Of a stretch of 64,000 nt of DNA, positions 28,724 through 51,207 are shown piece after piece. Source of the DNA: Bordetella parapertussis (lineage in GTDB: Bacteria > Pseudomonadota > Gammaproteobacteria > Burkholderiales > Burkholderiaceae_A); the NCBI GenBank assembly GCA_945877235.1, contig CAMCRF010000008.1, forward strand, positions 1-64,000. The letters run 5' to 3'. How positions within the stretch are numbered: the stretch's first letter is position 1; each line of letters begins with the position of its first letter. The notes beneath the pieces were generated by a model that saw only the letters and a program-made list of their open reading frames with translations, was not told where the DNA came from and made no database searches. The position numbers were made by a program, and so were the translations under genes.

Positions 28724-30767
28724 GTCCAATCAGCCAGTTGCGAGGCAGCCCAGGCTCGAGCGGAGCTGAATTATTCACAATGACCGAGGCGACATAAGTC
28801 TTATCCGTGAGGTTTTCCGCCCGAGCGAAGAGCGTCCAGTCCCAACCATGAGCGACCCCGCGGTAGCCTACCCAAGCATTCATCAGCTGGGTGCCGTTCA
28901 CCCTGACTTGGTTCAGATCATCGGCCACCCGAGACCCGAATGATTGGCCCTCGAGGGCAGCACTCCAGCCCATGGCTTGGCCACTGCGATCTCGGGCAGA
29001 AGCCCACTCCAGGGCGGCAAACGCCTGATGGCGGGGAACCGATGGGATGCGAGATCCGGATGTGATGAGACCCAGAGTGGATCGGGCCGAGTCTGAATAG
29101 ACAGCTCGCATCCAGGTGAGTGCCGCAGAGGACCGAAAACCCAGGCCCCAGTCCTTGGCATGGGCGAGCTCAAGTCCTTCACGAATCGTCCCAGGCGCAT
29201 TCCGAAAAGAAGTCCGACCGAAGGCAGACTGATCGGTCACGACCTCGTCAACCGTTTTGGCTCGAAACCCCACCAAGTCAAGCCGCTCTTGCGGGCTCGG
29301 CCTCCATTTCATGCCGACCTCAAACTGGCGATTCACAGCGGCCTTGAGTGCTGAATTAAAGTCGCTGGTGGGAATCGCGCCAGACGGCGCACTGGCGTAT
29401 GCCACCTCGGCAAGGGTGGGAGACTCAAACCCTCGGCCCACACTGGCAAACACATTCAACTTTGGGGATGCGTGCCAGGTCAGGCCCACGACTGGACTGG
29501 TCTGACGGTACTGCACCTCACCGCTGCTATTTCCATTGCTGAGATAGAAGTCAGAATTCTCCAACCGCAGTCGGCCAACACGAACGCCGAGCAGGCCAGT
29601 GACTTGCTCTGCAAGTGGAACTTCCCAAGATCCATAAAGACCAGTTGCAATGGCAGCGTTGTCCTCATCGCGGTTGAGTCCAGCTTTTTCGCCCAAGGAC
29701 GCAGGGCCAGCTTGACGCCGCTCCACCGCGCGGTCGTGCTCTAGTCCGAGCAGAAATGCGCCGGGAACCGAGGACCCAAGGCGCAGACCCGACAGCTGTA
29801 GGCCCAAACCCGAGAAATCACGCTCCAGCCCAACCCAGGCATTAAAGGCTTGGTATTGCAGGTTAGAGCGTGTTCCCGCATAGACTCTCGCCTCCAGCGC
29901 AGCGGACTTCGAGAGCTCAGAACGCAAGCGTACCCCTAACTGACTCTGATCCGTGATCTTACGAACACGACGGGCAACGGTATTGGCGCCAGCCTGCTGA
30001 GGGTTTTGCTCGAAGGCTGCCGGGGTGAGGCCCGCAGGGTCCTCTGCGAGTGGCTGATCCCAGTCGCTAAGCACCACGGACCACGTTGTTGCGGGGCTGA
30101 TCCGTAGGTCGAACTTCGCATGCAACTGCTCGCGCTTGGCAGCGGATTGGTCGCGATGGCCATCGGTCTCAAAACGAGAGACATCGACCAGGAGCGCGCT
30201 GCGGTCGTTGGCCTGATCCAACTGAAGGCTTTGTCGCATCAGTCTATCGGATCCCCAGACCGCAGATGCAGTGCCCGAGACCCCGGTGGCGGGTGTACGA
30301 CTGAAGGACTGGATGACGCCCCCGGATGCATTGCCATAGAGGATCGCCAACGGACCTCGAATCACCTCAATGCGATCGGCAGAACCGAGCGCAAAGCTCG
30401 AGGCCTGCCCTTGACCATCGGGAATGCTCGCGGGAATGCCATCTGCAATGAGGCGTATGCCGCGCACACCAAAAGCAGCACGTGCGCCGAACCCGCGGAT
30501 GGAGATCTGCGGGTCTTGGGCGTAATTGTTCCGATTGCTGGCCATGACCCCAGGGAGCCTTGCAAGTGCCTCTGTCAGATTCACCTGCGGACCCGCCGTC
30601 TGCAAGACCAATGACTGCACGGCGTTCACGGCGGCAGGCGCATCAAACCCGTCCTGCTCGACACGCGTTGCACTCACCACCACCTCGGGGATGAGCGTGG
30701 CCTCCTGGGCACAAACGCCCGCACTCAAAAACACCGCCCCAAAGGCGGGGAATAATTTGATGTTCAT
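28701..30767 (-). CDS. pqqU: TonB-dependent outer membrane receptor, PqqU (YncD)-like
   Basis: A 688-aa receptor with signal peptide (cleavage near GVCAQ), TonB box region IPEVVVSATR, plug domain and 22-strand barrel ending in Leu. Plug blocks NYAQDPQISIRGFGARAAFG and GIPASIPDGQGQ closely parallel, from memory, E. coli YncD/PqqU, the high-affinity PQQ importer; the end NLTDKTYVASVIVNNSAPLEP matches too. It is third in an operon with a cytochrome c and a PQQ-dependent dehydrogenase, which supports PQQ as cargo. I use ATG 30767; GTG 30773, overlapping the cytochrome stop as GTGA, is possible. Confidence 0.85.
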   Translation of the reverse strand: MNIKLFPAFGAVFLSAGVCAQEATLIPEVVVSATRVEQDGFDAPAAVNAVQSLVLQTAGPQVNLTEALARLPGVMASNRNNYAQDPQISIRGFGARAAFGVRGIRLIADGIPASIPDGQGQASSFALGSADRIEVIRGPLAILYGNASGGVIQSFSRTPATGVSGTASAVWGSDRLMRQSLQLDQANDRSALLVDVSRFETDGHRDQSAAKREQLHAKFDLRISPATTWSVVLSDWDQPLAEDPAGLTPAAFEQNPQQAGANTVARRVRKITDQSQLGVRLRSELSKSAALEARVYAGTRSNLQYQAFNAWVGLERDFSGLGLQLSGLRLGSSVPGAFLLGLEHDRAVERRQAGPASLGEKAGLNRDEDNAAIATGLYGSWEVPLAEQVTGLLGVRVGRLRLENSDFYLSNGNSSGEVQYRQTSPVVGLTWHASPKLNVFASVGRGFESPTLAEVAYASAPSGAIPTSDFNSALKAAVNRQFEVGMKWRPSPQERLDLVGFRAKTVDEVVTDQSAFGRTSFRNAPGTIREGLELAHAKDWGLGFRSSAALTWMRAVYSDSARSTLGLITSGSRIPSVPRHQAFAALEWASARDRSGQAMGWSAALEGQSFGSRVADDLNQVRVNGTQLMNAWVGYRGVAHGWDWTLFARAENLTDKTYVASVIVNNSAPLEPGLPRNWLIGLRTRLAL

Positions 30768-30769
30768 GA

Positions 30770-31108
30770 TCACGACCCCGGTTCGACCTGAATCCGAATC
30801 GACGCATACCAGGCCGAAAGGTTCTCAATGTCCAGATCTGTCAGTGGCTTCGCAATCACACCCATGACCTCATGCTTGCGCTTTCCGCTGCGATACGCCT
30901 TGAGCTGCTCGGATAAGTACAAAGCCTGCTGACCCGCAAGATTCGGCGCGCTTGGCATGGGGGCAATGCCAAGCGGACCATGGCACACCGCACAGGCCAT
31001 GGCCGCCTTCTGCCTACCCTGCCCTGGATCCGCCGCCCACACCGCACCGCTCATCAAGAGCGGTGCGAGCAGGCATAGCGTGAAGCGACGACTTGGAATG
31101 GCAGCCAT
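30770..31108 (-). CDS. mono-haem c-type cytochrome (class I)
   Basis: A 112-aa periplasmic protein with a signal peptide (LCLLAPLLMSGAVWAADP) and one haem-binding CAVCH motif at about residues 37-41. A distal Met ligand is probably in KHEVMGVI. The PNLAGQQALYLSEQLKAYRSG block is typical of cytochrome c4/c553-type domains. ATG 31108 shares a base with the stop of the PQQ dehydrogenase gene, so it is almost certainly that enzyme's electron acceptor. The TonB receptor follows immediately. Confidence 0.9.
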   Translation of the reverse strand: MAAIPSRRFTLCLLAPLLMSGAVWAADPGQGRQKAAMACAVCHGPLGIAPMPSAPNLAGQQALYLSEQLKAYRSGKRKHEVMGVIAKPLTDLDIENLSAWYASIRIQVEPGS

Positions 31109-32388
31109 TAAGGGTTGTAGCTGATGCGATAGATCGCGCCCGCGTAGTCGTCGGAGACCAGCATGGAGCCATCTTTCATAACCGCCACATCGACCGGTCG
31201 TCCGCGATAGAGACCCGTTTCAGGATCGAGAAAGCCCGATGCGAAGACTTCCATCTTGCCAGCGGTTCCGTCGGGTTTGACAGGGATGTACTGAATCTCT
31301 GCCCCGGACGGTTTGGTGCGGTTCCACGATCCGTGCGCAGCGACAAAGGCTCCACCCTGGTACTTCGCAGGAAACTTTTTACCGGTGTAGAAAGCCATGC
31401 CAAGTTGCGCCTGGTGCGCGGGAAACTCCACCTGCGGGAAGACAGCGCCTGCTGGCTCCTTCATGTCCTTGAGGTCGGGAGCAGCAGACGAACCCGCTAC
31501 TTTGAACTTTCCGTTCCAGTATGGGAACCCAAAATGCTGACCCGTCTTTGTCGAGCGGTTGAGCTCGCCCGGAGGAATGTCGTCACCCAAGCCATCGACC
31601 TGGTTGTCTGTCCACCATAGGCTCCCATCTTTCGGATTGAAGTCCATGCCCACAGAATTACGAGCACCCATTGCAAAGACCTCACGGCCCTGTCCGCTGA
31701 AGGGGTCTAGGCGAATAATTCCGCCGATTCCAACCTTGTTGTAGAGATCGATTTTTTCTTTGGGCTGCACGTTGTAGGGCTGACCCAGGGTGATGTAGAG
31801 CTTGCCGTCTGGACCGACACGGCAAGTGCGCGCGCCGTGGTTGAAGGACTCTTCGTCGGTGGGAATGAGCTTGCCTTTGGCAACCACCTCGATCACTGCA
31901 ACATCGGGGCCCTCGTAGAAGAACTCAGCTGCGGGGAAGTTGAGCACACGGTTGTGCTCGGCCACAATGAGAAATCCGTCTTTCGTCCAGCAGACCGCAT
32001 TGGGGTTAGTGAATTTGAGCGACGGGGCAAAAGACTTCACCTCGTCTGCAACGCCATCGCTGTTGCGATCCGTCACCGCCCAAACCGTCGTCTTGCGTGT
32101 GCCCACGAAGAGCATGTTAGTTGAGGGTGCAACCGCCATGTGGCGTGCATCGGGCACCACAGCAAACAACTCAATCTTGAAGCCATCGGGAAGCTTGACC
32201 TTCTTCAGGTTTGCCCGAATGGCATCGGCATTCTTTCCTTCTTGTGCAACGACAGGAATGTTCAGATCGGTTGTGGCCACCTTCATTTGCTTAAGGGTCG
32301 AGAGATTGTCTGGTGCGGCCCAGACGCTGCTCCCCACCAGCGCGGCGGCAACTGCAATCGCCACCGCAGACTTCTTCATGATGCTCAT
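31108..32388 (-). CDS. PQQ-dependent sugar dehydrogenase (L-sorbosone dehydrogenase-like)
   Basis: A 426-aa periplasmic six-bladed beta-propeller oxidoreductase of the soluble glucose/sorbosone dehydrogenase superfamily. It has a signal peptide (VAIAVAAALVGSSVWA) and the blocks AVAPSTNMLFVGTR, FNHGARTCRVGPDGKLYITL, GARNSVGMDFNP, AAHGSWNRT and DGSMLVSDDYAGAIYRISY, the last typical of the family. It would oxidise an aldose or related substrate and pass electrons to the adjacent cytochrome c; the substrate is unknown. AGGAG precedes ATG 32388. A paralogue is transcribed divergently. Confidence 0.86.
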   Translation of the reverse strand: MSIMKKSAVAIAVAAALVGSSVWAAPDNLSTLKQMKVATTDLNIPVVAQEGKNADAIRANLKKVKLPDGFKIELFAVVPDARHMAVAPSTNMLFVGTRKTTVWAVTDRNSDGVADEVKSFAPSLKFTNPNAVCWTKDGFLIVAEHNRVLNFPAAEFFYEGPDVAVIEVVAKGKLIPTDEESFNHGARTCRVGPDGKLYITLGQPYNVQPKEKIDLYNKVGIGGIIRLDPFSGQGREVFAMGARNSVGMDFNPKDGSLWWTDNQVDGLGDDIPPGELNRSTKTGQHFGFPYWNGKFKVAGSSAAPDLKDMKEPAGAVFPQVEFPAHQAQLGMAFYTGKKFPAKYQGGAFVAAHGSWNRTKPSGAEIQYIPVKPDGTAGKMEVFASGFLDPETGLYRGRPVDVAVMKDGSMLVSDDYAGAIYRISYNP

Positions 32389-32435
32389 GTCGCTCTCCTG
32401 GATGTGAATGTAATGGGCACGGTGAACTGTGTTTC

Positions 32436-32449
32436 ATCACAATAGTGAT
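32436..32449. promoter_or_regulatory. short inverted repeat ATCAC-AATA-GTGAT
   Basis: A perfect 5-bp inverted repeat with a 4-bp spacer, embedded in AT-rich DNA 48 bp upstream of the minus-strand dehydrogenase start. It could be an operator half-site pair, but it is short enough to occur by chance. No regulator gene is adjacent. Confidence 0.35.
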
Positions 32450-32506
32450 AATTTTTGATTGGGTGGCCTGTGAGAAACCCTGAGAGACATTCCTTCATGC
32501 GCATAG

Positions 32507-32530
32507 CTTGGTACTGGGGTGAGTACCAAG
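32507..32530. promoter_or_regulatory. perfect 9-bp inverted repeat, candidate operator between divergent PQQ operons
   Basis: CTTGGTACT (32507-32515), a 6-bp spacer GGGGTG and AGTACCAAG (32522-32530) form a perfect dyad in the 198-bp region between the two divergent PQQ dehydrogenase operons. No T-tract follows on either strand, so it is not an intrinsic terminator. A dimeric repressor or activator site is the simplest reading; the regulator is unknown. Confidence 0.5.
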
Positions 32531-32586
32531 AGACAAGCACGCCAGATCTTTTGATGATTTCACATGAACAATCCCAGGAGTTTTAT

Positions 32587-33789
32587 ATGAAAAAAATATC
32601 AAAAGCATTCGGACTGACGATCATCGCCGCGGCCTTCACAAACGCCGCAACGCCCGCGCTCGCGCAAGCCTGGAAGCAGGGTATGACGCCAGAACAGGCC
32701 AATTCCACGCTCGCTCCTCACGCAGGCAAGGCGACTGTCACCCCTGCCACGGATATCCCACTCTCAAAGCTCAAACTACCCAAAGGATTCGTAGCTGAGG
32801 TGTGGTCTACCGGCACGCCCGGGGGCCGTGCCATGGCGATGGGAGACAACGGAAAGATCTATGTCGGAACCCGTGCACTCGGTAGGGTTTACGAGATTTC
32901 AGACAACGGCAAAGAGCGTGCTTCGCGCGTGGTCATCGACAAATTGACACAGCCCGCAGGCGTGGCCTTCCGAAACGGAAGCCTCTATGTCATGGCTATC
33001 GACAAAGTACTTCGATTCGACGGGATCGAGCAGAACCCCAATGTGGCACCGGTTGACATGACCGAGGCCTTCAAGCTGCCCAAGGAGCAGCATCACAACT
33101 GGAAGTACATCAAGTTCGGACCCGATGGGAAGCTCTACGTCCCTTTTGGCGCGCCCTGCAACATCTGTGAGCTGCCTACCTCTGAGTACGCCCAGATTCG
33201 CCGCTACAACCCCGACGGCTCAGGTATGGAGGTCATCGCAACCGGCGTGCGCAACTCGGTTGGCTTTGACTTTCACCCTCAGACCAAAGACCTCTGGTTC
33301 TCAAACCACGGCAGAGACTGGATGGGAGACGACTTACCAAACGACACACTTCATCGTCTTGGAAAGACCGGCGCAAACTTTGGCTTCCCCTACTGTCACC
33401 AAGGCAGCATTCCCGATAACACCATCCAAAAGGCAGATGCCTGCAAAGGCGTAGACAAACCAGTGGCCCTCATGGGCCCCCACGCGGCTGCGATGGGTGT
33501 CACGTTCTACACCGGCAACCAGTTTCCGAAGGAGTACCAGGGCGCAGCACTGGTGGCACGCAAGGGGTCCTGGAATCGCACCAAAAAGATTGGGTTCGAT
33601 GTGGTGATGGTCAAGGCTAACCCAGACGGCAGCAATGCCAAGGTCACGCCCTTCATCACGGGCTTCCTCGACGAGGGCAGCCAGAGCTTCTGGGGGCGCC
33701 CTGCCTACATGCTCCAAATGAAAGACGGTTCTTTGCTCTTGTCTGACGAGCAGCTCGGCGCCATTTATCGCATCAGCTATCGTGGTTAA
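32587..33789 (+). CDS. second PQQ-dependent sugar dehydrogenase paralogue
   Basis: A 400-aa periplasmic paralogue of the divergent dehydrogenase. It has a signal peptide (LTIIAAAFTNAATPALAQA) and the same propeller blocks: NGKIYVGTRALGRVYEI, KYIKFGPDGKLYVPFG, GVRNSVGFDFHP, ARKGSWNRT and DGSLLLSDEQLGAIYRISY. The start is ATG 32587, set by AGGAG at 32576-32580; a longer reading frame upstream lacks a ribosome-binding site. The next gene, a di-haem cytochrome c, overlaps it by 8 nt and is the likely electron acceptor. The substrate is unknown and may differ from the paralogue's. Confidence 0.86.
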   Translation: MKKISKAFGLTIIAAAFTNAATPALAQAWKQGMTPEQANSTLAPHAGKATVTPATDIPLSKLKLPKGFVAEVWSTGTPGGRAMAMGDNGKIYVGTRALGRVYEISDNGKERASRVVIDKLTQPAGVAFRNGSLYVMAIDKVLRFDGIEQNPNVAPVDMTEAFKLPKEQHHNWKYIKFGPDGKLYVPFGAPCNICELPTSEYAQIRRYNPDGSGMEVIATGVRNSVGFDFHPQTKDLWFSNHGRDWMGDDLPNDTLHRLGKTGANFGFPYCHQGSIPDNTIQKADACKGVDKPVALMGPHAAAMGVTFYTGNQFPKEYQGAALVARKGSWNRTKKIGFDVVMVKANPDGSNAKVTPFITGFLDEGSQSFWGRPAYMLQMKDGSLLLSDEQLGAIYRISYRG

Positions 33790-34411
33790 AGCAGTCTTGG
33801 CGTGGCACGCTCCTCTGGGTGCCACGCTGTTGTTCTTGGCTTTCGCCATGAACGCCCCCTCGATCGGGGCAGCGCCGCTCGCCCAAGTGATCCACCAAAA
33901 AGCCTGTGCGGCCTGCCACGGTCTTGATGGAAACGCGCCCGTCGACGGCGTGCCGTCGCTTGCTGGTCAGCCAGCGGTCTTCATTGAAACGCAGCTCGTG
34001 TACATCCGCGAAGGACTGCGCGACGTGCCCGCAATGCGAGAGGTCGCCAAAGGACTCAGTGATTCAGAGATGACACAGCTCGGTCGGTGGTACGCCACCC
34101 TGCCCGCGAAGACCCAGAGCAGTCGCTTTAACGCCGCTGCTTTCGCGCGTGGTCAAGTCCTGGCCAAACAAGCGCTCTGCGGCACCTGCCATATGCCGAA
34201 TTACCAGGGCCAGCAACAAGTGCCGCGGCTGAGCAGCCAGCGGGAGGACTATCTTCAAGTCACGCTTCGACTGATGCGCGATGGGAAGGCTGCAGGCAGG
34301 GACACCATCATGACCACGGCGCTCGAGGGTCTCGACAACCAAGCACTTGACGACCTCGCGCATTATTTTGCAAATCGAGATCAGCCCGGGAACAGCCCTG
34401 TGCTCAAGTAG
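33782..34411 (+). CDS. di-haem c-type cytochrome (c4-like)
   Basis: A 209-aa exported cytochrome with two haem motifs, CAACH (about residue 42) and CGTCH (about residue 138), arranged as two tandem class I domains as in cytochrome c4. The GTG start at 33782 overlaps the dehydrogenase end by 8 nt, and the signal peptide region is LGATLLFLAFAMNAPSIGAAP. Position and coupling suggest it carries electrons from the PQQ enzyme to a terminal oxidase. Its 3' end overlaps convergent cysM by 31 nt. Confidence 0.9.
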   Translation: MVKAVLAWHAPLGATLLFLAFAMNAPSIGAAPLAQVIHQKACAACHGLDGNAPVDGVPSLAGQPAVFIETQLVYIREGLRDVPAMREVAKGLSDSEMTQLGRWYATLPAKTQSSRFNAAAFARGQVLAKQALCGTCHMPNYQGQQQVPRLSSQREDYLQVTLRLMRDGKAAGRDTIMTTALEGLDNQALDDLAHYFANRDQPGNSPVLK

Positions 34412-38372: not shown

Positions 38373-39878
38373 ATGAACTTGATCACACACCTTATCGCCG
38401 GCCAACACGATGCGGGGGCGAATGGCCGCCGCCAACCCGTCTTCAATCCAGCAACTGGTCTTCAAACCGCGGAGGTCTGCCTAGCCGGTGCGGCAGAGGT
38501 CGACCGCGCCGTGCGGGCTGCGCAGACCGCTTTCCAAGGCTGGTCCCAGGTGCCGCCCTTGCGCCGCGCACGTATTCTCTTTAAGTTTCTCGAGCTGCTT
38601 AACCAACATCGAGATGAACTCGCCCGACTCATCACCGCTGAGCACGGAAAGGTCCTGAGCGACGCCCAAGGCGAGGTCACACGCGGAATTGAGATCGTAG
38701 AGTTTGCGACGGGCATTCCCCAACTGCTCAAAGGCGCTTTCACCGATCAGGTCTCGACCGGAATTGACAACTGGGTATTTCGGCAGCCACTTGGCGTCGT
38801 AGCGGGCATCACCCCCTTTAATTTTCCCGTCATGGTCCCCATGTGGATGTATCCCGTCGCAATTGCCTGCGGCAATACCTTCGTGCTCAAGCCCAGCCCA
38901 ATAGACCCCAGTGCAAGCCTGCTCCAGGCGCAGCTTCTTAAGGAGGCCGGCCTCCCTGATGGTGTTTTCAATGTCATCCAAGGCGATAAAGATGCGGTTG
39001 AGGCACTTCTCGATCACCCCGATGTCCAGGCCGTCAGCTTTGTCGGTTCAACCCCGATCGCCAACTTCATTTACGAGCGGGGTGCTCGAAATGGCAAGCG
39101 TGTCCAGGCGCTCGGTGGCGCCAAGAACCACATGGTCGTCATGCCCGATGCAGATCTCGACCAGGCGGTCGACGCGCTTGTTGGTGCTGCGTATGGCTCT
39201 GCGGGCGAGCGCTGCATGGCCATCAGCGTCGCTGTGCTCGTGGGCGACGTGGCCGACCGCATCATGCCCAAACTGACTGAGCGGGCGCGGCAGCTCAAGA
39301 TCATGAATGGCATGCGTGCCGAGGCTGAAATGGGTCCCATTGTGACGGCACAAGCCAAGGCTCGAATTGAGGGCTACATCACCTCCGGCATTGAAGAGGG
39401 CGCCACACTGCTGGTTGATGGGCGTAACCCTGACACAGCGGGCATGGGTGAGGGTTGTAGCGAGGGGTTTTGGCTGGGCGGATCGCTCTTTGACCATGTC
39501 AAACCCGACATGAGGATCTATCGCGAGGAGATCTTTGGGCCCGTGCTCTCCTGTGTCCGTGTCCAAGACTTCGCGCAAGCAGTTGCGCTCATCAACGCAC
39601 ATGAGTTTGGAAATGGTGTCTCGTGCTTCACCCGCGACGGGAATATCGCGCGCGAGTTCAGCCGACGGATTCAGGTCGGCATGGTGGGCATTAACGTTCC
39701 CATCCCAGTCCCCATGGCATGGCATGGCTTTGGCGGGTGGAAAAAGTCTCTTTTTGGAGACACGCATGCGTATGGAGAAGAAGGGGTTCGGTTCTACACG
39801 CGCCAGAAGTCGATCATGCAGCGCTGGCCCGAGAGCATCGAAAAAGGCGCGGAATTCGTCATGCCAACCGCCAAATAG
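38373..39878 (+). CDS. mmsA: methylmalonate-semialdehyde dehydrogenase (CoA-acylating)
   Basis: A 501-aa aldehyde dehydrogenase converting (methyl)malonate semialdehyde to propionyl- or acetyl-CoA in valine, thymine and beta-alanine breakdown. The catalytic Cys is in [15 protein letters not shown], cofactor binding in [17 protein letters not shown], and the MMSDH-specific blocks [18 protein letters not shown] and [16 protein letters not shown] are present. It is divergent from recG. It may be unrelated to the downstream puc operon, which has its own promoter 18-60 bp after this stop. Confidence 0.93.
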
Positions 39879-39896
39879 CATCGACCTAGACAAATG

Positions 39897-39914
39897 TGTC
39901 ATTGCAGCTTGACA
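39897..39914. promoter_or_regulatory. PpsR/CrtJ-type box 1 (TGT-N12-ACA)
   Basis: TGTCATTGCAGCTTGACA matches the TGT-N12-ACA palindrome bound by the redox/light-responsive photosynthesis repressor PpsR/CrtJ, and its arms extend to TGTCA/TGACA. It contains the TTGACA -35 element of the puc promoter, so binding would block RNA polymerase. The position upstream of pucB fits known PpsR targets. Confidence 0.78.
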
Positions 39915-39937
39915 AATTAAACTGTCTAGTCAAATCT
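39909..39937 (+). promoter_or_regulatory. puc operon promoter (-35 TTGACA)
   Basis: A perfect TTGACA at 39909-39914 is followed 17 nt later by a weak -10 region, AAATCT at 39932-39937. A weak -10 fits a regulated promoter. Both elements are covered by the two PpsR-type boxes. The predicted start site near 39944 would leave a leader of about 39 nt before pucB containing ACCCC-GAA-GGGGT. Confidence 0.5.
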
Positions 39938-39940
39938 ACA
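39923..39940. promoter_or_regulatory. PpsR/CrtJ-type box 2 (TGT-N12-ACA)
   Basis: TGTCTAGTCAAATCTACA is a second TGT-N12-ACA site, starting after an 8-bp gap from box 1. CrtJ is known to bind cooperatively to two such sites spaced 8 bp apart at the bchC promoter of Rhodobacter capsulatus. This box overlaps the -10 region. Confidence 0.72.
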
Positions 39941-39982: not shown

Positions 39983-40135
39983 ATGACTGACAAAGAAAAG
40001 GTCTGGCCCACGGGCTTGACAGAGGCCGAGTCGGAGGAAATTCACCGTAATCTGATCCAAGGAACCCAGTTCTTCGGGATGATCGCGGCCTTCGCTCATC
40101 TACTGGCGTACATTTATTCCCCATGGCTGGGTTAA
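39983..40135 (+). CDS. pucB: light-harvesting 2 beta subunit
   Basis: A 50-aa antenna peptide with one membrane helix. It has the LH beta signature: LTEAESEEIH with the first conserved His, then AAFAHLLAYIYSPWLG with the His that ligates a B850-ring bacteriochlorophyll. Numbered as in Rhodoblastus acidophilus these are His12 and His30; position 20, Arg in that protein and a B800 contact, is Gln here. A strong AAGGAG site precedes ATG 39983. pucA follows 10 nt downstream. Antenna peptides are inserted in the cytoplasmic membrane. Confidence 0.95.
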   Translation: MTDKEKVWPTGLTEAESEEIHRNLIQGTQFFGMIAAFAHLLAYIYSPWLG

Positions 40136-40145
40136 GGAGCGCGAC

Positions 40146-40361
40146 ATGATCTACGGAAAAATGTGGTGTGTCGTAAAGCCCTCTGTGGGCATTCCTATGT
40201 TTTTGGCGGCCGTTGCGATTGGATCTTTTCTGGTCCACCTCGCGATTACCACCAACACAACCTGGGTGAAGCGTTTCCTCAACGGTGAGCCCGTGCGAGT
40301 CACCGCTGTTGCCGAAACCCCCGGAGCAGCGCCTGCTGCCCCGGCTCCTGTGAAGCGCTAA
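40146..40361 (+). CDS. pucA: light-harvesting 2 alpha subunit, LH3-like (Phe44-Leu45)
   Basis: A 71-aa antenna peptide. It aligns without gaps to the Rhodoblastus acidophilus LH2 alpha chain: KMWCVVKPSVGIP at the N-terminus, the bacteriochlorophyll-ligating His31 in FLVHLAI, and TTW at 38-40. Positions 44-45, Tyr-Trp in B800-850 complexes, are Phe-Leu here, the pair found in blue-shifted B800-820 (LH3) complexes. An Ala/Pro-rich tail (GAAPAAPAPVKR) resembles that of Rubrivivax gelatinosus. AAGGAG precedes the ATG. Confidence 0.95.
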   Translation: MIYGKMWCVVKPSVGIPMFLAAVAIGSFLVHLAITTNTTWVKRFLNGEPVRVTAVAETPGAAPAAPAPVKR

Positions 40362-40438: not shown

Positions 40439-41821
40439 GTGCGTGACCCCGACATCGGTCTTCCAAACAGGCGATTTCGTCTCGCCCTCTCCTTCCTTCC
40501 TTTCGCAGACGTTGCGAGCCCAGATCTGCCGCTCAGCAGGCTGCTGAGACTCTCCCTGTTTCAGGTCTCGGTGGGCATGGCGATGGTCCTGCTGCTGGGA
40601 ACCCTCAACCGAGTCATGATCGTCGAGCTCAAGGTGCCCACCGCACTGGTCGCGATCATGGTCTCGCTCCCCATTCTCTTCGCTCCCTTTCGCGCGCTGA
40701 TTGGTTTCCACTCTGATCGGCATCAGTCAGAATTGGGCTGGCGCAGGGTTCCTTACATGTGGCGAGGAACGATGGCTCAATTCGGTGGCTTCGCCATCAT
40801 GCCCTTCGCACTACTTGTACTTGCCGGCGCGGGGCAAGCCGCCCACGCCCCCCTCTGGATCGGCTATGTGGCAGCTGGCGCAGCCTTTCTGCTAGTTGGT
40901 GCGGGCCTACACACCGTTCAGACCGCGGGACTTGCCCTTGCCACCGATCTCACCGCCGAGCATTCCAAGCCAAGAATGGTTGGTCTGATGTATGTCACGC
41001 TCTTGCTCGGCATGGCAGTCAGTGCACTTGTTTTTGGCCACCTGCTGAGCGACTACAGTCATGGCCGGCTAATTCAGGTCATTCAAGGCGCTGCCGTGAC
41101 CACCATAGTCCTCAATACCATTGCACTCTGGAAGCAGGAGCCACGCAATCGCGCGCGGGCTGCCCAAGCCTCTGACAATGAGCCTGGCTTCTGGCAGAGC
41201 ATCGAGCAATTGGCACCCTCGCGTCGCCAAAAAATTTGGCTGCTCACCATTTTTATTGGCACCCTGGCTTTCACCATGGAGGACGTGCTTCTCGAACCCT
41301 ATGGTGGAGAGGTCCTTGAACTCAGCGTCTCTGCGACAACCTACCTCACGGCGACACTCGCCCTGGGCAGTCTGATTGGCTTCTGGTGGGCCTCTGAACA
41401 ACTTGGGCGGAAAGCCTGCCCCTATCGACTCACCCGGCTCGGTGCATGGGTCGGCGTACCAAGCTTTCTTGTCGTCATGCTCGCGGCGCCTCTGCAGTCC
41501 CATCTGCTGTTTTCGGGTGCAGTCTTCGGCATTGGCCTCGGGGCTGGCCTCTTTGGACATGGCACCCTAACCGCAACTATTCTCGCTGCACCCCACGGTC
41601 AGTCCGGGCTTGCCCTTGGGCTCTGGGGGGCCCTACAGGCAACAGCTGCAGGCCTCGGGATGGCGAGCGGGGGGATTTTAAAAGACTTGGCAGGGCAGAT
41701 CCTAAGCCCAGGCCCTTCGTATGCTGTGGTTTATGCTTTGGAGCTGCTGCTGCTTGGCCTGACTCTCATACTGCTACGAACATCGCCTCTCAACACCCAA
41801 GGACACTCTCGTGGACACTAA
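40439..41821 (+). CDS. pucC: PucC-family light-harvesting assembly protein (BCD MFS family)
   Basis: A 460-aa, 12-helix major-facilitator-type protein of the bacteriochlorophyll-delivery (BCD) family, needed for LH2 assembly. Diagnostic blocks are LFQVSVGMAMVLLLGTLNRVMIVEL, split here as the first helix, then PFRALIGFHSD, RRVPYMWRG and MEDVLLEPYGGEVL. The start is GTG 40439, 78 nt after pucA and just beyond the stem-loop. The last 11 nt overlap a small downstream ORF. Whether it carries pigment or acts as a chaperone is unresolved in the family. Confidence 0.93.
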   Translation: MRDPDIGLPNRRFRLALSFLPFADVASPDLPLSRLLRLSLFQVSVGMAMVLLLGTLNRVMIVELKVPTALVAIMVSLPILFAPFRALIGFHSDRHQSELGWRRVPYMWRGTMAQFGGFAIMPFALLVLAGAGQAAHAPLWIGYVAAGAAFLLVGAGLHTVQTAGLALATDLTAEHSKPRMVGLMYVTLLLGMAVSALVFGHLLSDYSHGRLIQVIQGAAVTTIVLNTIALWKQEPRNRARAAQASDNEPGFWQSIEQLAPSRRQKIWLLTIFIGTLAFTMEDVLLEPYGGEVLELSVSATTYLTATLALGSLIGFWWASEQLGRKACPYRLTRLGAWVGVPSFLVVMLAAPLQSHLLFSGAVFGIGLGAGLFGHGTLTATILAAPHGQSGLALGLWGALQATAAGLGMASGGILKDLAGQILSPGPSYAVVYALELLLLGLTLILLRTSPLNTQGHSRGH

Positions 41822-41924: not shown

Positions 41925-42119
41925 ATGTTTGGTTTGCCATTCCTTTTCGTTGTGCTCTTGGCTGTTCTGTTTATCGGCCCCCTCATTCACCCGGTCATTC
42001 TGCGCAACAAGGGCGTGGAGTTCAGCAAAGAAGCCAAACAGCACCAGACGCTCATGGTCTGGGGCTATTTGCTCGTGATTGGCCTACTCCTTGCACAGGC
42101 GGTTCAGAGACCCTGGTAG
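41925..42119 (+). CDS. 64-aa two-helix membrane protein downstream of pucC
   Basis: ATG 41925 to 42119 encodes 64 aa with two hydrophobic helices (residues 4-27, FLFVVLLAVLFIGPLIHPVI, and 43-60, LMVWGYLLVIGLLLAQAV) linked by a polar loop RNKGVEFSKEAKQH. It ends QRPW. The ribosome-binding site is weak (GCGAG). It lies 24 nt after the 29-aa ORF and 16 nt before the convergent gcvT end, so it closes the puc operon. The family is not recognised; a role in antenna assembly or packing is speculation. Confidence 0.65.
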   Translation: MFGLPFLFVVLLAVLFIGPLIHPVILRNKGVEFSKEAKQHQTLMVWGYLLVIGLLLAQAVQRPW

Positions 42120-42135: not shown

Positions 42136-43242
42136 TCACTGAGCGCGCTTGTAGCGCTTGGGGACGAAAGGTAATTTCGCCGCACTGAGCGCTAAGCGCT
42201 TGTCGCGGACCACGGCAAAAAGGGGCTGTCCTGCAGCCTCTGAGTGCACCATTGCCATCAGGATGGGGTAACCCAGAGACGGCGACACGGTTCCGCTGGT
42301 GACCTCGCCCACCACATCACCCGAGGCCAGCACAATTGCTGCATGCGCCCGAATGGGCACCGGCTCTTTGCTCGTGAAGGCCAAGAGCCGTTTGCTCGGC
42401 TGCCCCCACTGAGCACCAATGGCCTGAGCACCGGGATACCCACCTGCCTTCGCCCCAGCAGGCCGGCGAGCACTGGCAATTCCGAAGGTCAGTCCAGCCT
42501 CAACCGGCGTTACCGAGGGGGTCATGTCGGAGCCGTGTAGCGGTAGGCCAGCCTCTAGGCGCAGGGTGTCGCGCGCGCCAAGACCAGCACACGCAACCCC
42601 CTCGGCAGCCATGAGCGCACGCACCACGCGTTCCGCATCCTGTGTGGGGATTGAGATCTCGTAGCCATCCTCACCCGTATAGCCGCTGCGCGTCGTAAAG
42701 CAGGAGGCCCCAAGAAGATTCAGCTCAGCAGCCTCCATGAAGCAAAGCCCCACCGCCCGCGCGTCCAGTGCGGCCAGGACGGCCTCAGCACGGGGGCCTT
42801 GCAGCGCGATGAGCGCCGCATCGACCCACTCGAACCGAAGGTTGGGCGCGAGCCGCTGCATGCGCGCGAAGTCTGCATCCCGGTTACCGGCGTTCACGAC
42901 GAGACGCACTTCATGACCAAGCCAAACCGCCATAAGGTCGTCTTCAATGCCGCCTTGGTCATTGAGCAACAACGAGTAGCGCTGCTGGCCCACGGGCCAG
43001 CCCTGAAAGTCCAACGGCAGAACAGCCTCAAGCCCCTGAGAGAGGGCCTCTGGGGAGGATGCCGTGACTCGGATTTGACCCATGTGAGAGACATCGAAGA
43101 GGCTCGCAGAAGCACGACAGTGCAGGTGCTCCGCCTTCAATCCCATGGGGTACTGAATGGGCATGTCAAAGCCCGCAAACGGGCCAAACTTCGCACCGAG
43201 CTCACGATGCAGGTCTGCGAGCGGAATCTGGCGCGCCGTCAT
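42136..43242 (-). CDS. gcvT: glycine cleavage system aminomethyltransferase (T protein)
   Basis: Tetrahydrofolate-dependent T protein that releases ammonia and forms 5,10-methylene-THF. The 368-aa protein shows the family N-terminus [15 protein letters not shown], the signature [21 protein letters not shown], and the folate-site block [17 protein letters not shown]. It overlaps the end of gcvP by 4 nt and closes the gcvH-gcvP-gcvT operon. Confidence 0.96.
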
Positions 43243-46124
43243 GACACGTAGTCCGAGACGGGTGGGCAGGTGCAGACGAGGTTGCGATCTCCTGCCGCGT
43301 TATCGATTCGCTTGACCGAGGGCCAGAATTTTGCGGCTCTCACCCAGGGCAGGGGGTAGACCGCCACCTCCCGCGAATAACTGTGCGACCAGTCTCCTGC
43401 AACCTCAGTAGCGGTGTGCGGAGCCTGCTTGAGGGGGTTGTCTGTGCGGTCCCATGCCCCTGAGCGAACCTGCTCAATCTCCGCTGCAATCGCAATCATC
43501 GCGTCGCAGAAGCGATCGAGCTCAGCCTTCCCTTCAGACTCCGTGGGCTCCACCATGAGGGTGTCAGTGACAGGGAACGAGAGCGTTGGCGCATGAAAGC
43601 CGTAGTCCATCAGTCGCTTCGCAACGTCCTCAGCCGTAATGCCCAGTTCACCTTTGAGGGACCGCAGGTCAAGAATGCACTCGTGTGCGACCCGGCCCGA
43701 GGGCCCGGTGTAGAGAATCGGGAAGTGAGGCGCAAGCCGGTGGGCCATATAGTTCGCGTTCAGGATGGCCGTTTCCGTTGCCTTGCGAATGCCACTTGAG
43801 CCCATCATACGAATGTAGAGATAGGAAATCGTGGTAATGAGCGCACTGCCAAACGGCGCGGCAGACACACTGTTTGCCGCCTCGGGCTGCTCAAAAGGAT
43901 GCACAGGCAGAAATGGGGCAAGGTGCTTGGCCACAGCAATAGGCCCCATTCCCGGGCCACCACCGCCATGCGGAATGCAGAAGGTCTTGTGCAGGTTCAT
44001 GTGACAGACGTCCGCACCGATCTGCCCAGGCTTGGTTAAGCCCGCCTGCGCGTTGAGATTCGCACCGTCCATATAGACCTGCCCCCCTGCTGCGTGGATC
44101 TGGTCACAGACGTATTGAATGGAGGCCTCAAAGACCCCGTGAGTCGACGGATACGTGACCATGAGTGCACTGAGCTGGTCCGCATGCTGAGTGATTTTTG
44201 CATCAAGGTCACGGAGATCGATATTGCCCTGCTCATCGCAGGCGACCACCACGATCTTGAGGCCCATCATTTGAGCGGTGGCAGGATTCGTGCCGTGGGC
44301 GGAGGACGGGATCAGACAGACGTCGCGATGCCCTTGGCCCAGAGAGCGCTGGTATTGACGAATGGCCATCATGCCGGCGTACTCGCCCTGCGCTCCAGAG
44401 TTGGGCTGGAAGCTCACCTCATCAAAGCCCGTGATTTCACAGAGCCAGTCGCGCAGGTCCTTGAGCATCATGGCGTAGCCCTTAGCCTGCTCGGGCGGAA
44501 CGAACGGGTGAAGCGATGCAAACTCCGGCCAGCTGACGGGCGCCATTTCCGTGGCCGCGTTGAGCTTCATGGTGCAAGAGCCCAGCGGGATCATGGAATG
44601 GACGAGGGAAATATCTTTGTTCTCCAGGCGCTTGAGGTAGCGCACAAACTCGGTCTCGCTCTGGTAGCGATGGAAGACAGGGTGCGTCAGCACCGAATCT
44701 TGACGCAGAAGGTCCCCGGGCACTGACGCTGGTACCTGGCTCATTGGAATCTTGCGCAGGTCATCTGTTGATATGCGTCGACCGCCTAAGACTTCAATCA
44801 GGTCGGCCAGGTCCGTGAGCGTGACTGTCTCATCGAGGGCCACTCCAACGGCCTGACCAGAGACGCGCAGGTTGATCTGCTTCGCAGCAGCGCGGCTGAG
44901 AACAACCGCTCGCTGACTGCCGAGCTCAAACCACAGCGTGTCGAAAAACTGCGCATGGGCAGGTTTTACGCCAGACACCTCAATGAGGAGCCTCGCAAAG
45001 AAATTGACCCGCTGAGCAATGCGCTGCAGCCCTTGCGGCCCGTGATACACCGCGTAGAAGCTCGCCATGTTCGCCAACAGGGCCTGCGCAGTGCAGATAT
45101 TGCTGGTGGCCTTGTCTCGCCGAATGTGCTGCTCGCGGGTCTGAAGCGACATGCGGTAGGCAGGATTTCCTGCGGCATCGACTGACACCCCAATAATGCG
45201 TCCCGGCATCGAACGGACCAGATCGGCCTTCACCGCCAAAAACGCAGCATGTGGTCCGCCAAAGCCCATGGGCACGCCAAACCGTTGCGCGTTGCCCAGC
45301 GCTGCATCGGCCCCCATAGCCCCGGGGGACTTCAAAAGCATGAGCGACAACAAGTCGCAACCAACCGCAAGCCGGGCACCGTTAGCATGCACTTGCTCTG
45401 CAACCGACTCCAATTGGAGTACACGCCCCTGCGTGTTGGGCGTCTGCACATGCACGCCGAAAGCCGTGGGAAGCTCTGCCGCAAGCACAGATGCATCCAG
45501 GCAGTCACAGACCATCACCTCGACACCGAGCCAGGCGGCGCGGCTCTTGATGACTGCAATCACCTGAGGATGAACCTGCGTATCAACCAGGTAGCGATTC
45601 GCCGGGGCGCGCTTGTTGGCCCTGAGAAACATGCCCATCGCCTCTGCCGCAGCTGTGGCCTCATCAAGTAAAGAGGCGTTTGCGGTCGGCAGCCCAGTGA
45701 GGTCAACCACCACCTGCTGAAAGTTCATGAGCGCCTCGAGCCGCCCCTGGGCGACCTCTGCCTGGTACGGCGTGTAGGCGGTATACCAGCCTGGGTTCTC
45801 GAGCAGATTGCGCTTGATGGGCTCGGGCGTGTGGGTGCCAAAGTAACCGGCCCCAATGTAAGTTCGCCATACCTGATTGTGGCGCGCAATCTCACGCAAG
45901 CTCGAAAGTGCCTCTACCTCGGTCTCTGGCTCGGGAAGGGCCAGCGGTCCGGGCGACAAAATGGCCTCTGGTACGGTGGCCTGAATGAGATCCTCAACCG
46001 AGGCCACGCCGAGAGCCTGAAGCATGGACTGCTGCTCGGCGTGAGAGGGACCGATATGGCGTGCATGGAAAGCCTCTGCATCGAGCAGGCCTTCGAAGGA
46101 ATCAACAGGCTCGTATCCTTGCAT
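43239..46124 (-). CDS. gcvP: glycine dehydrogenase (decarboxylating), P protein
   Basis: PLP enzyme that decarboxylates glycine and passes the aminomethyl group to lipoyl-GcvH. The full-length single-chain form (961 aa) is present: N-terminal half with [17 protein letters not shown] and [17 protein letters not shown]-terminal half with the PLP lysine in [21 protein letters not shown]. It lies 4 nt after gcvH and overlaps gcvT by 4 nt, so expression should follow the upstream glycine riboswitch. Confidence 0.97.
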
Positions 46125-48003: not shown

Positions 48004-49169
48004 CCGACGCGGTCCTGACCCTCAACGCCGGGTCCTCCTCACTCAAGTTGGCCGTATTCGGGGCGCAGGGCGATGAGCCGTTTCTCACCGGTCAGGTTGA
48101 GCGTATTGGGGCGCAGGGCAGTCTGCGACTGCAATTGAGCGACGGCGCAACCGTCGCACCTCCCCGCGTCCCTCTCTCAAATCATGCCGAGGCGTTAAGT
48201 GCTGTCATCCAGGCGTTGAAGCAAGCGCTCCCAGACCTTGCCTTCTCTGCAATTGGGCACCGGGTTGTGCACGGTGGGGACCGCTTCACCTCGCCCGCGC
48301 GCGTGACCCCAGCCGTCATGGAGTACCTGACCACCCTGGAGCCCTTTGCTCCCCTGCACCAGCCGCATAACCTTGCGGGCATTCGCACCGCGATGGCTGC
48401 CTTCGGAGACGTTCCCCAAGTTGCTTGCTTCGACACCGCCTTCCATCGTGGTCACCCCTTTGTGAACGATAGCTTCGCCCTTCCCTTTCGCTACTTTGAG
48501 AGGGGCGTTCGCCGGTATGGGTTCCATGGGCTGAGCTACGAGTACGTGAGTGCTCGCCTGCGAGACCTCGCACCTCAGATCGCGCAGGGACGTGTGGTCG
48601 TTGCGCACTTGGGCAATGGTGCTTCGATGTGCGGCATGGTCGACGGGAAATCTGTCGCATCGACCATGGGGTTTTCTGCGCTCGATGGTCTGCCCATGGG
48701 TACGCGATGTGGCCAGATTGATCCGGGGGTCTTGCTCTACATGCTCGACCAAGAGGGCCTCTCCTCCTCCGAGATCCGACACACCCTGTATAACGAGTCA
48801 GGTCTACTCGGCCTCTCGGGGGGCCTCTCTAATGACATGCGCACGCTAGAGGCGTCCAACACCCCAGAGGCCCAGCGCGCCATTGACTATTTCGTCTTTC
48901 GCATCCAGCGTGAGATCGGCGCCATGGCTGCCGCCATGGGCGGAATCGATGCGCTGGTGTTTTGTGGGGGCATCGGAGAGCACTCACTAGGGGTGCGTGC
49001 TCGAGTATGCGAACGCATGCAGTGGATGGGTATCGAGATCGATCACCACCGCAACACCCAGAACGCACAGGTCATCTCCCCGGAGGGCTCACGCACCTGC
49101 GTGATGGTCATTCCCACGCAAGAGGAACTGGTGATTGCGCGGGCAGCCAGAGCGGTCAGTGGCCTCTAA
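48000..49169 (+). CDS. ackA: acetate kinase
   Basis: Interconverts acetate + ATP and acetyl phosphate + ADP. The 389-aa ASKHA-fold protein has LTLNAGSSSLKLAVF at the N-terminus, GHRVVHGGDRF, RYGFHGLSYEYVS, VAHLGNGASMCGMVDGKS and FCGGIGEHS. It is coupled to the fabI-like gene by a 4-nt overlap. Phosphotransacetylase (pta), which often accompanies this pair in betaproteobacteria, is not in the window. It ends overlapping convergent btaB by 4 nt. Confidence 0.95.
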   Translation: MTDAVLTLNAGSSSLKLAVFGAQGDEPFLTGQVERIGAQGSLRLQLSDGATVAPPRVPLSNHAEALSAVIQALKQALPDLAFSAIGHRVVHGGDRFTSPARVTPAVMEYLTTLEPFAPLHQPHNLAGIRTAMAAFGDVPQVACFDTAFHRGHPFVNDSFALPFRYFERGVRRYGFHGLSYEYVSARLRDLAPQIAQGRVVVAHLGNGASMCGMVDGKSVASTMGFSALDGLPMGTRCGQIDPGVLLYMLDQEGLSSSEIRHTLYNESGLLGLSGGLSNDMRTLEASNTPEAQRAIDYFVFRIQREIGAMAAAMGGIDALVFCGGIGEHSLGVRARVCERMQWMGIEIDHHRNTQNAQVISPEGSRTCVMVIPTQEELVIARAARAVSGL

Positions 49170-49795
49170 GACGGTTGTGGACTGAGCGCCGCACTCACGC
49201 AGTAGCGCCCGAGCCGCCAATTCGCCTTTACGCCAAGCGGGCTGACTTCGGGTGAGAAAAGCTCGGGCCTTGGGTAGACCTCGAAGCGCTTGAGAAACTC
49301 AAGCACAAGCCGTCGCGGTAATGCCGGCCAGCCTGAGAGGTCTCCAAAATCCACCGCGGCAAGATACCCGTCGGGGCTGATCCAGCTGCTGGCGTTCTGA
49401 ATGGCCAGGTCCGGGCGAGGCATCATGGACAAGGAGTAGGGAAACATCACCACATCCACGCAACCTGCTGGGCGATAGGACTCTGCAAATCCATGGACCA
49501 GCGTAATCTGAGCTGTGAGCCCCGCCTGCCTCACCTTACGACGAGCCATCTCCAGCATGGCCTCTGATGCGTCAACCCCAATCAGTTGGAGGTCGGGACG
49601 ACGTCTTGCGAGACGAATCAGATTGTGAGCCGTGCCGCAGCCCATTTCACAGACACGGCCGCCCTCGGGCGGATCCAGCGTGTCGACCAGTCGGTCGCGC
49701 CCGAAAAGAAACAGGGGTCGAGTCCAGTCGTAGACGTAACGCGTCCAACGATAGACGCTATCCATCTTGGCGCCGTGCTGTTCGAGCGAATCCAT
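49166..49795 (-). CDS. btaB: betaine lipid N-methyltransferase BtaB
   Basis: A 209-aa class I SAM methyltransferase (motif I CEMGCGTAHNLIRLA, then LIGVDASEAMLEMAR). With btaA immediately upstream (5-nt gap) it matches BtaB, which trimethylates diacylglyceryl-homoserine to the betaine lipid DGTS. The N-terminal YRWTRYVYDWTRPLFLFGRDRL is typical of BtaB proteins, as far as I recall. DGTS replaces phospholipids under phosphate limitation. Confidence 0.9.
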   Translation of the reverse strand: MDSLEQHGAKMDSVYRWTRYVYDWTRPLFLFGRDRLVDTLDPPEGGRVCEMGCGTAHNLIRLARRRPDLQLIGVDASEAMLEMARRKVRQAGLTAQITLVHGFAESYRPAGCVDVVMFPYSLSMMPRPDLAIQNASSWISPDGYLAAVDFGDLSGWPALPRRLVLEFLKRFEVYPRPELFSPEVSPLGVKANWRLGRYCVSAALSPQPS

Positions 49796-49800
49796 GCGCG

Positions 49801-51027
49801 CTACGCTGCTGGGAATGCTTGCCGCTGCATGAGGTGAAACCCCCCGTAGATGGCCGATCGGTCTTGCTTGTGAAGGTGCGCTGAGGTCTCACGGGCGTAG
49901 TGCCAGTTGCGCAGCACTTGCTTGTCAACACGATGGAGCAAGATGTTCTCTGCACCCGCAGTGCGAAAGATGACACGCGCTTTCGGCGATGCCGCACGCT
50001 GCACTTCACTCCAAAGCGCGTTGAGCTGCTGATCATTCATCCAATCTTGTGCGTCCAGGAAGACAAACGCATCAACGGACTCCGCCGGCTGGGCCTTGAG
50101 AAAGGTGGTGAGCATCATGCGATGCATCTCGACCTGCCCAATGCGCTGACGCAGATTCTCATAGTGGCGCTCCTGCAGGTACCGAGGTAGCGCCTCTGTC
50201 TGATCGAGGTCATATCTGCGCCCAAACGCCTGCCAGGCAAAGTAATTGGTCGAGAGGTCAAAGTCACAGGCCAGTCGACGCAAACGGTCATGCAGAACCA
50301 TTGACATCGACGGCGCATCTCCTTGGAGCTTCTGGAACTGAGCGGCTGGAATCCCGAGACCATAGAGCGCGAACGGATTCTGAAGCGCCCTCTGCACAAA
50401 TGGACGTTTGAGCACCCGCCCCATGGTTGCATCGAATATTTCAGCCTGCTCCTGACGGTTCGAGGCGCTGAGGATGTCCCTTGGGTTCACGCCGAAGAGA
50501 CGAGCCGCGAGGTGGCTCGCGCCGATGAAGCGCCCAAGTACCCCTTTGGTATAGAAATTCTCGGTGAAGGCATCAATGCGGCGGGTAAAGGGTGTCCGCT
50601 TCTCCCAATACGCGCGGCTGGCTTGGTCGAGATGGGGGGCAATCTTTTCGAAGTAACGCGCACGGTTCTCGCGTTGATTGGCGTGACCAAAGAAAGCCAA
50701 GAAGTCTTCATGCTGGTCAAGGCCGCGGAGGGCTGCATGCTTCAGGTGATTGAGGGCAATATGCGCGCGACTCAAATCCAATGCTGAAATCCGAATTTCG
50801 GCCGCCGTCAGCATGTTGAGGAGGTTGCAGCCACCAGATGCGATCGCTACGACATGCTCGCCGTCTTGTAGCTGAAGTGCCTGAAGATCGACCTCGGGAT
50901 CCTCCCAGATCTGGGGATAGACAAGGTGGTTAAACAACGCCGCAAAGATGCGGTCTGAGATTCGAAGACCGCGCTCGGAGGGGACCTCTCCCAGAACGGC
51001 GTCTACAGCGATAGATTTGCTTGACAT
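49801..51027 (-). CDS. btaA: SAM:diacylglycerol 3-amino-3-carboxypropyltransferase BtaA
   Basis: DUF3419-family enzyme, about 408 aa, that transfers the aminocarboxypropyl group of SAM to diacylglycerol, the first step of DGTS synthesis. Visible blocks are NHLVYPQIWEDPEVDLQAL, VVAIASGGCNLLNML (SAM site), ALDLSRAHIALNHLKHAAL and VFLDAQDWMND. ATG 51027 is chosen; GTG 51036, closer to GGGAG, is a fair alternative. btaB follows after 5 nt. No PhoB box was recognised in the 180 bp upstream. Confidence 0.92.
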   Translation of the reverse strand: MSSKSIAVDAVLGEVPSERGLRISDRIFAALFNHLVYPQIWEDPEVDLQALQLQDGEHVVAIASGGCNLLNMLTAAEIRISALDLSRAHIALNHLKHAALRGLDQHEDFLAFFGHANQRENRARYFEKIAPHLDQASRAYWEKRTPFTRRIDAFTENFYTKGVLGRFIGASHLAARLFGVNPRDILSASNRQEQAEIFDATMGRVLKRPFVQRALQNPFALYGLGIPAAQFQKLQGDAPSMSMVLHDRLRRLACDFDLSTNYFAWQAFGRRYDLDQTEALPRYLQERHYENLRQRIGQVEMHRMMLTTFLKAQPAESVDAFVFLDAQDWMNDQQLNALWSEVQRAASPKARVIFRTAGAENILLHRVDKQVLRNWHYARETSAHLHKQDRSAIYGGFHLMQRQAFPAA

Positions 51028-51207
51028 GCGCGGCACTCACTCCCGTGACGTTCAAGGCGAACGAATTAGCGGCAAAGCGTGAATGACCGAGATGACAAAA
51101 GCGTGACAACACAGGTTGGGTGCCAGAGTTCTCAACGTTTATTGAATTATCTGGTTTATTTATCTGTGAGACCCATTTAAGCCGCGATTCCGCGATAGCA
51201 TGAGCCG

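Follow-up and report, generated by a model that had tools for sequence, protein, structure and literature searches.

We think it likely (with a probability of roughly 0.78) that the pucBAC operon in the window, the whole 64,000-nucleotide stretch of DNA analysed here, encodes the peripheral antenna (LH2) of a phototrophic, freshwater-type member of the Burkholderiales, probably its only one, in which the alpha chain has no hydrogen-bond donor at residues 41, 44 and 45 and the long-wavelength band falls at about 805–826 nm, with about 813 nm as the best estimate. We infer the pattern of hydrogen bonds and the band position from named relatives and solved structures. This LH2 is an ordinary member of a widespread and partly known kind of antenna. 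The worth of the analysis lies in a corrected forecast, which takes in alpha Val41, alpha Ser27 and a beta-chain Gln, and in the apparently repeated exchange of Phe and Tyr at alpha residue 44.

Assignment to LH2 follows from alpha and beta LHC domains (PF00556), both with the bacteriochlorophyll-ligand His, beside a pucC gene. The LH2 beta gene, pucB (39983..40135, + strand, 50 aa, 35.3 bits), is separated by 10 bases from the LH2 alpha gene, pucA (40146..40361, +, 71 aa, 32.4 bits against a cut-off of 23), the translation of which begins MIYGKMWCVVKPSVGIPMFLAAVAIGSFLVHLAITTNTTWVKRFLNGEPVRV and includes Met1, Ser27, His31, Val41, Phe44 and Leu45. The gene for the LH2 assembly factor, pucC, comes next (40439..41821, +, PF03209, 472 bits), with a putative GTG start as listed. 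A 64-aa ORF 3ʹ of pucC (41925..42119, +), which had no match in a Pfam scan and is 91% identical in the locus of the nearest relative (L001), is a putative operon member. The upstream neighbor (38373..39878, +) is an aldehyde dehydrogenase gene (PF00171), presumably mmsA-like and not a photosynthesis gene, and we take the downstream neighbors (42136..46124, −), from their sequences, to be gcvT and gcvP. L001 has the same gene order as the window (cysM-like, LysR-type, recG, mmsA-like, pucBAC, small ORF, gcvT and gcvP, some of these names being recognised from sequence without a Pfam scan), with 77% DNA identity over 14.4 kb and protein identities of 100% for pucB, 96% for pucA and 84% for pucC.

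The window contains 93 listed ORFs of at least 150 aa, many of them overlapping. Besides puc, we scanned 40 ORFs of the window against Pfam, with no match to any puf, puh, bch or crt family; within the window, the puc operon thus lies away from a photosynthesis gene cluster and is surrounded by housekeeping, lipid and transport genes. In the genome that holds L001 (G001), puc and puf are on separate contigs.

The numbering of the window alpha chain equals that of solved LH2 alphas: HMMER places residues 3–52 on 3–52 of 7ze3_A, in an alignment that we inspected, and residues 3–47 on 3–47 of 1kzu_A, as read from the match table only. Hence, residues 44–45 (codons TTC and CTC, 40275..40280, +) are Phe-Leu, and both this pair and the gapless register with solved LH2 alphas, as claimed in the original prediction, are borne out. 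The same pair is found in the B800-820 LH3 of Rbl. acidophilus 7050 (1IJD); the corresponding residues are Tyr-Trp in the B800-850 complex of Rbl. acidophilus (1kzu) and Tyr-Tyr in that of Rba. sphaeroides (7pbw).

What does the Phe-Leu pair mean for the color of the antenna? Hydrogen bonds to the C3-acetyl groups set the B850 band, with two bonds giving about 850 nm, one about 825 nm and none about 800 nm, as stated in excerpts of PMC9618040. The donors described are alpha Tyr44 and Trp or Tyr45, and in LH3 (1IJD) Tyr41 bonds the alpha pigment (PMC6988754, PMC9618040, both in part). The codon for residue 41 in the window (40266..40268, +) specifies Val. The expectation of an LH3-like loss of hydrogen bonds with absorption near 820 nm is therefore partly right: the classical donors at residues 44 and 45 are absent, but since residue 41 is Val, as in the PucD antenna, and not Tyr, the LH3 wavelength cannot be transferred to the window. 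By the hydrogen-bond rule, Val41 leaves the window alpha one bond poorer than LH3. We rejected an assignment to LH3 proper because Tyr41 is missing; LH3 further differs in having Ala27 where the window has Ser27, and is reported to be made in low light beside LH2. Might a plain LH3-type band at about 820 nm nonetheless arise, with some other donor replacing Tyr41? The shared Phe44-Leu45 is in keeping with this idea but Val41 is not, and we know of no other residue in solved structures that reaches the acetyl groups; we regard such a band as unlikely.

The best solved match to the window alpha is the PucD-LH2 of R. palustris (7ZE3), which has Val41, Phe44 and, like the window (Val-Phe-Leu), no C3-acetyl donor at residues 41, 44 and 45. 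PucD-LH2 absorbs at 803 nm (PMC9618040, in the part available), and a similar collapse of the window band to an LH4-like single peak at about 803 nm is conceivable. We consider this improbable for two reasons. First, the window alpha has Ser27, a possible donor to the C13 keto group, as do 270 of the 272 distinct alphas in our set, whereas 7ze3_A has Val27. Second, Limnohabitans planktonicus, whose genus carries the residues of the window, has a separate 813 nm band. PucD-LH2 also differs from the window in Met45 and in an Arg at beta(-10), and it is described as having a gamma subunit with an extra bacteriochlorophyll and as one of several puc pairs (PMC9618040, in part). Section 7 of that paper gives the PucD residues as Met44 and Phe45; the aligned 7ze3_A sequence reads Phe44-Met45.

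The absorption peaks of L. planktonicus, at 799 and 813 nm (given in part of a review, PMC12654162), come from the nearest kin of the window with a published spectrum. The link runs via the genus of Limnohabitans sp. G3-2, into which L. planktonicus is assumed to fall. In this genus, a PucA match was found in 37 of 90 genomes, in one case spread across two reading frames. Like the window alpha, the alphas begin with MIY; of the 36 that could be parsed, 35 have Val41-Phe44-Leu45 and one has Val41-Tyr44-Leu45, and all 36 betas have Gln at beta(-10). As in the relatives of the window, there is mostly one puc pair. The genus differs from the window at alpha residue 4, which is Gly in the window but Ser in 31 and Ala in 5 of the 36 parsed alphas (L142–L177). 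It also differs in the position of puc: the distance to puf is 6.8 and 7.0 kb in two Limnohabitans genomes, whereas the puc operon of the window is set among housekeeping genes.

We propose that, in an alpha chain without donors at residues 41, 44 and 45, the C3-acetyl groups of the B850 ring would turn out of plane. This would raise the site energies and put the long-wavelength band near 805–826 nm instead of 850 nm, and Ser27, for which a bond to the C13 keto group is possible, may prevent the band from falling to the 803 nm seen in PucD. In Rba. sphaeroides, the Y44F/Y45L mutant is described as B800-826, with Ser27 still in place (PMC8775250, PMC9618040, both in part), which speaks against a plain prediction of 800 nm; the long-wavelength band of L. 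planktonicus is intermediate. Since an equal change gives unequal bands in different backgrounds (803, 813, 820 and 826 nm), the predicted number is soft. The part of PMC9618040 that deals with Ser27 leaves open its role when other bonds are missing, and suggests that finding it out may require a triple mutant. From their sequences, the freshwater antennae look like that case in nature, and would offer a natural test of the role of Ser27 without a C3 bond.

The beta chain of the window keeps His39, at the B850 ligand position, and His21, and has Gln29 at beta(-10), opposite Arg in five alignments (7zdi_B, 7ze3_B, 7pbw_BA, 7zcu_B and 8z81_b). In Rba. sphaeroides, the beta(-10) Arg is reported to bond the B800 acetyl group, which is worth about 10 nm, and to sense membrane potential through the carotenoid (PMC8775250, in part). 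The window belongs to a group that we define here as MIY-type: the alpha starts with MIY, residue 41 is mostly Val (113 of 117 distinct pairs) and beta(-10) is Gln. The beta chain could be parsed in 114 of these pairs (three were unparsed) and always has Gln at beta(-10), as against Arg in all five MN/MT-type pairs; one false alpha parse, starting with MGP, was excluded from these counts. The Gln co-occurs with alpha Ile2-Tyr3, which replaces Asn/Thr2-Gln/Asn3. We infer a probably changed B800 site in MIY-type LH2; the reported 799 nm band of L. planktonicus argues that B800 is still present. Another residue of the beta chain, Trp48, could in principle restore an 850 nm band, since in Phs. molischianum a Trp of the beta chain serves as a C3 donor (table 1 of PMC9618040). 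However, the C-terminus of the PucD beta (LAYVYSPWL) is nearly identical and is described in part of the same paper without such a bond, and Limnohabitans betas end alike although L. planktonicus absorbs at 813 nm. We therefore consider rescue by Trp48 very improbable and retain the expectation of a blue-shifted band.

The relatives of the window alpha are betaproteobacterial, as had been predicted, but the Phe-Leu pair is not unusual. Among the best 120 of 631 homologues, 101 have Phe-Leu and the remaining 19 have Tyr-Leu, which is not a chance distribution, and we rejected the description of the window alpha as a rare blue-shifted variant. We assembled 345 distinct full-length MI-type alphas from three protein searches (the best 120 of each, the second started from a Tyr44 chain) and from fetched loci, a set that is no census; it comprises 284 Phe-Leu, 43 Tyr-Leu, nine Tyr-His and six Tyr-Tyr chains, and one each of Phe-Phe, Phe-Met and Ser-Leu. 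Phe-Leu thus predominates in this family of freshwater Burkholderiales. Across 399 genomes of the order, a PucA match was found in 29; five of these are MN/MT-type and one (L103) was unparsed. Phe-Leu alphas of the family also occur in several MAGs titled Rubrivivax sp., and two MAG records titled “Bordetella parapertussis” carry puc genes of the freshwater family (pucBAC in L001, at least pucBA in L010); this title looks misassigned. Two loci with Tyr44-His45 are L092 (in G084) and L099 (in G203). His45 could itself donate a hydrogen bond, making these chains a possible further spectral variant.

The suggestion that the antenna is permanently tuned finds support in the number of puc operons in relatives, which are the sole source for copy number. 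The LHC family matched exactly four times, which we interpret from scores and spacing as one puc pair and one puf pair, in 19 of 20 genomes and, among the matches listed, in 47 of 53, a count that leaves out one genome with puc and without puf (G166). The exceptions among the matches listed have five (G018, which carries a fusion gene described below), six (G487, with a further pair on another contig), three (G430, G447 and G349) or two (G469 and G498). In a set of eight genomes, there were four matches in six and three in two; G320 has two pucA genes, both Phe-Leu. Most relatives thus have a single puc operon and hence no second LH2 to supply 850 nm absorption. In the nearest genus, that of G001, puf was found in 7 of 11 genomes and puc in 3 of 11, such that LH2 is an optional part there, although absence of a copy is weak evidence in genomes that are mostly drafts.

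The scarcity of puc in the nearest genus (3 of 11 genomes) might also mean that the window operon is decayed or silent. This is highly improbable. Comparison of the window with L001 over pucB and alpha residues 1–50 revealed 16 changed codons, all of them synonymous, and no amino acid changes; pucB and the core of pucA are thus under purifying selection, and pucA looks like a working gene. In the alpha tail (residues 51–71), there are 11 synonymous and three non-synonymous changed codons. We rejected the Ala/Pro-rich tail as evidence, since it is of low complexity and variable.

Conserved boxes upstream of pucB also argue against decay. Two TGTN12ACA motifs, each a putative operator, lie at 39897..39914 and 39923..39940 (both +), 26 bp apart, and both are found at the same sites in L001. 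We take this motif to be a PpsR/CrtJ-type operator. The motif as such is no commoner in the window than chance predicts (six found, 9.9 expected; in L001, five found and 2.2 expected), and the evidence for the boxes is therefore their place and conservation. In 119 distinct upstream regions, at least one box was present in 75 of the 83 belonging to the MIYG group of the window, and 38 of these 83 had two boxes exactly 26 bp apart, whereas a box was present in only 3 of 31 Limnohabitans-type (MIYS/MIYA) regions and in none of five MN/MT-type regions. Among 3000 random 310-bp stretches of the loci, which may include puc regions, 160 had a box and 45 had the 26-bp pair. Of 11 genomes from the G001 genus, 10 have a PpsR/CrtJ gene that scores over the curated cut-off; in 14 control genomes, PpsR matches were found in eight, none of them over the cut-off.

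It is a new observation that alpha residue 44 seems to flip repeatedly between Phe and Tyr within the freshwater family. The codons in the loci are TTC or TTT for Phe and TAC or TAT for Tyr, which are one base apart. When alphas identical in residues 1–43 are grouped, 9 of the 61 groups with more than one member hold both Phe44 and Tyr44; Leu45 is constant in eight of the nine, and both residues change in the other. On an alpha-only tree, a minimum of 39 changes at residue 44 is needed for 58 Tyr rows, compared with 48–57 (mean 53) in 30 shuffles, but this tree rests on 45 alpha residues and is weak. A quick tree of pucBA DNA (252 bases, 129 loci), built with a warning of long branches, requires a minimum of only four changes, which follows from the presence of Tyr44 in only five of the 129 loci. 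In a comparison of columns over 267 alphas, with each column omitted from its own tree, residue 44 has a ratio of 0.71 and ranks first among columns with at least 20 minority rows, the next having 0.57; the thinner columns 14 (0.73, 11 rows) and 11 (0.70, 16 rows) are level with it.

What might the exchange at residue 44 achieve? In Rba. sphaeroides, changing Tyr44 to Phe alone is reported to give a band at 838–839 nm (PMC8775250, in part), from which a Tyr44-Leu45 chain should be redder than a Phe44-Leu45 chain; we found no spectrum of a Tyr44-Leu45 chain in literature searches that were not aimed at that question alone. We tentatively propose, at somewhat under even odds, that residue 44 of a single LH2 is a recurrent one-nucleotide color switch (Phe about 813 nm; Tyr, with one bond, about 825–840 nm), swapped to fit underwater near-infrared light. 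The color switch of proteorhodopsin is an analogous case. The idea is testable, since named Limnohabitans strains of both states exist: the protein of Limnohabitans sp. Hippo3 (P0193, identical to L156 in G443) has Tyr44-Leu45, and those of 2KL-27 (P0186), Rim8 (P0189) and Jir72 (P0190) have Phe44-Leu45. These strain names belong to cluster representatives, and P0186 stands for 86 sequences. Tuning by a single residue has been known from mutants and from species with multiple puc operons; the flips suggest that it exists as standing variation throughout a planktonic group.

Blue-shifted antennae of betaproteobacteria had already been published, for Limnohabitans and for Rhodoferax antarcticus. 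The LH3 of the latter absorbs at 819 nm and, according to excerpts of PMC5374385, is encoded by one puc operon, with no 850 nm band and with Phe44-Phe45 in PucA, as opposed to Phe-Leu in the window. Gemmatimonas phototrophica, a freshwater-type aerobic phototroph, has a blue-shifted outer antenna, LHh (816 nm), which is a concentric ring reported to be tuned by a Trp31 rotamer (PMC12817894, in part); its 7o0u_aa chain has hardly any sequence match to the window alpha (E 0.61).

Two benefits of a blue shift have been put forward: less back-transfer from LH1 (PMC8775250, in part), and better cover of underwater near-infrared light, raised for the 816 nm antenna of Gem. phototrophica with sunlight behind 50 cm of water (PMC12817894, in part). 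By analogy, the second would fit plankton with a constant trait. The window antenna may serve to capture near-infrared wavelengths that pass more readily through water, and to pass energy downhill to LH1. For a common freshwater antenna, the expected color would move from the textbook 850 nm to about 805–826 nm, a shift that bears on estimates of light use by these bacteria; one source labels many of these chains “B-800-850”.

A different arrangement of an LHC domain occurs in the genus of Polynucleobacter sp. AP-Kaivos-20-H2. In G018, a single reading frame (L179:961–1632, −) fuses BchF (TIGR02020, 178 bits; PF07284, 203 bits) to a C-terminal LH beta domain (PF00556, 33 bits). Of 186 genomes examined in the genus, 15 contain such a fusion (L179–L194; 222–224 aa, 81–100% identity) and 82 have some match; in each of the 15, a separate match to beta is present as well. 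The ligand His of the beta part is kept in all 15, and pN/pS is 0.13 for the beta part, indicating purifying selection, 0.07 for BchF and 0.53 for the linker. Among 398 genomes of the family, there were 13 matches at E 1e-25 or better, all within the genus and five of them full length. The fusion could physically link the synthesis of pigment with the assembly of the antenna.

Three further observations concern the window itself. NCBIfam NF040862, named as LH1 beta (pufB), matches the LH2 beta at 39983–40135 with 66.4 bits against a cut-off of 61, and such pucB genes may thus be annotated as pufB. At 49166–51036 (−), a DUF3419 protein (PF11899) adjoins a methyltransferase, which we take to be a betaine-lipid pair like btaA-btaB. 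At 28701–34411, on both strands, a TonB receptor, two glucose/sorbosone-type dehydrogenases and a c-type cytochrome are encoded side by side.
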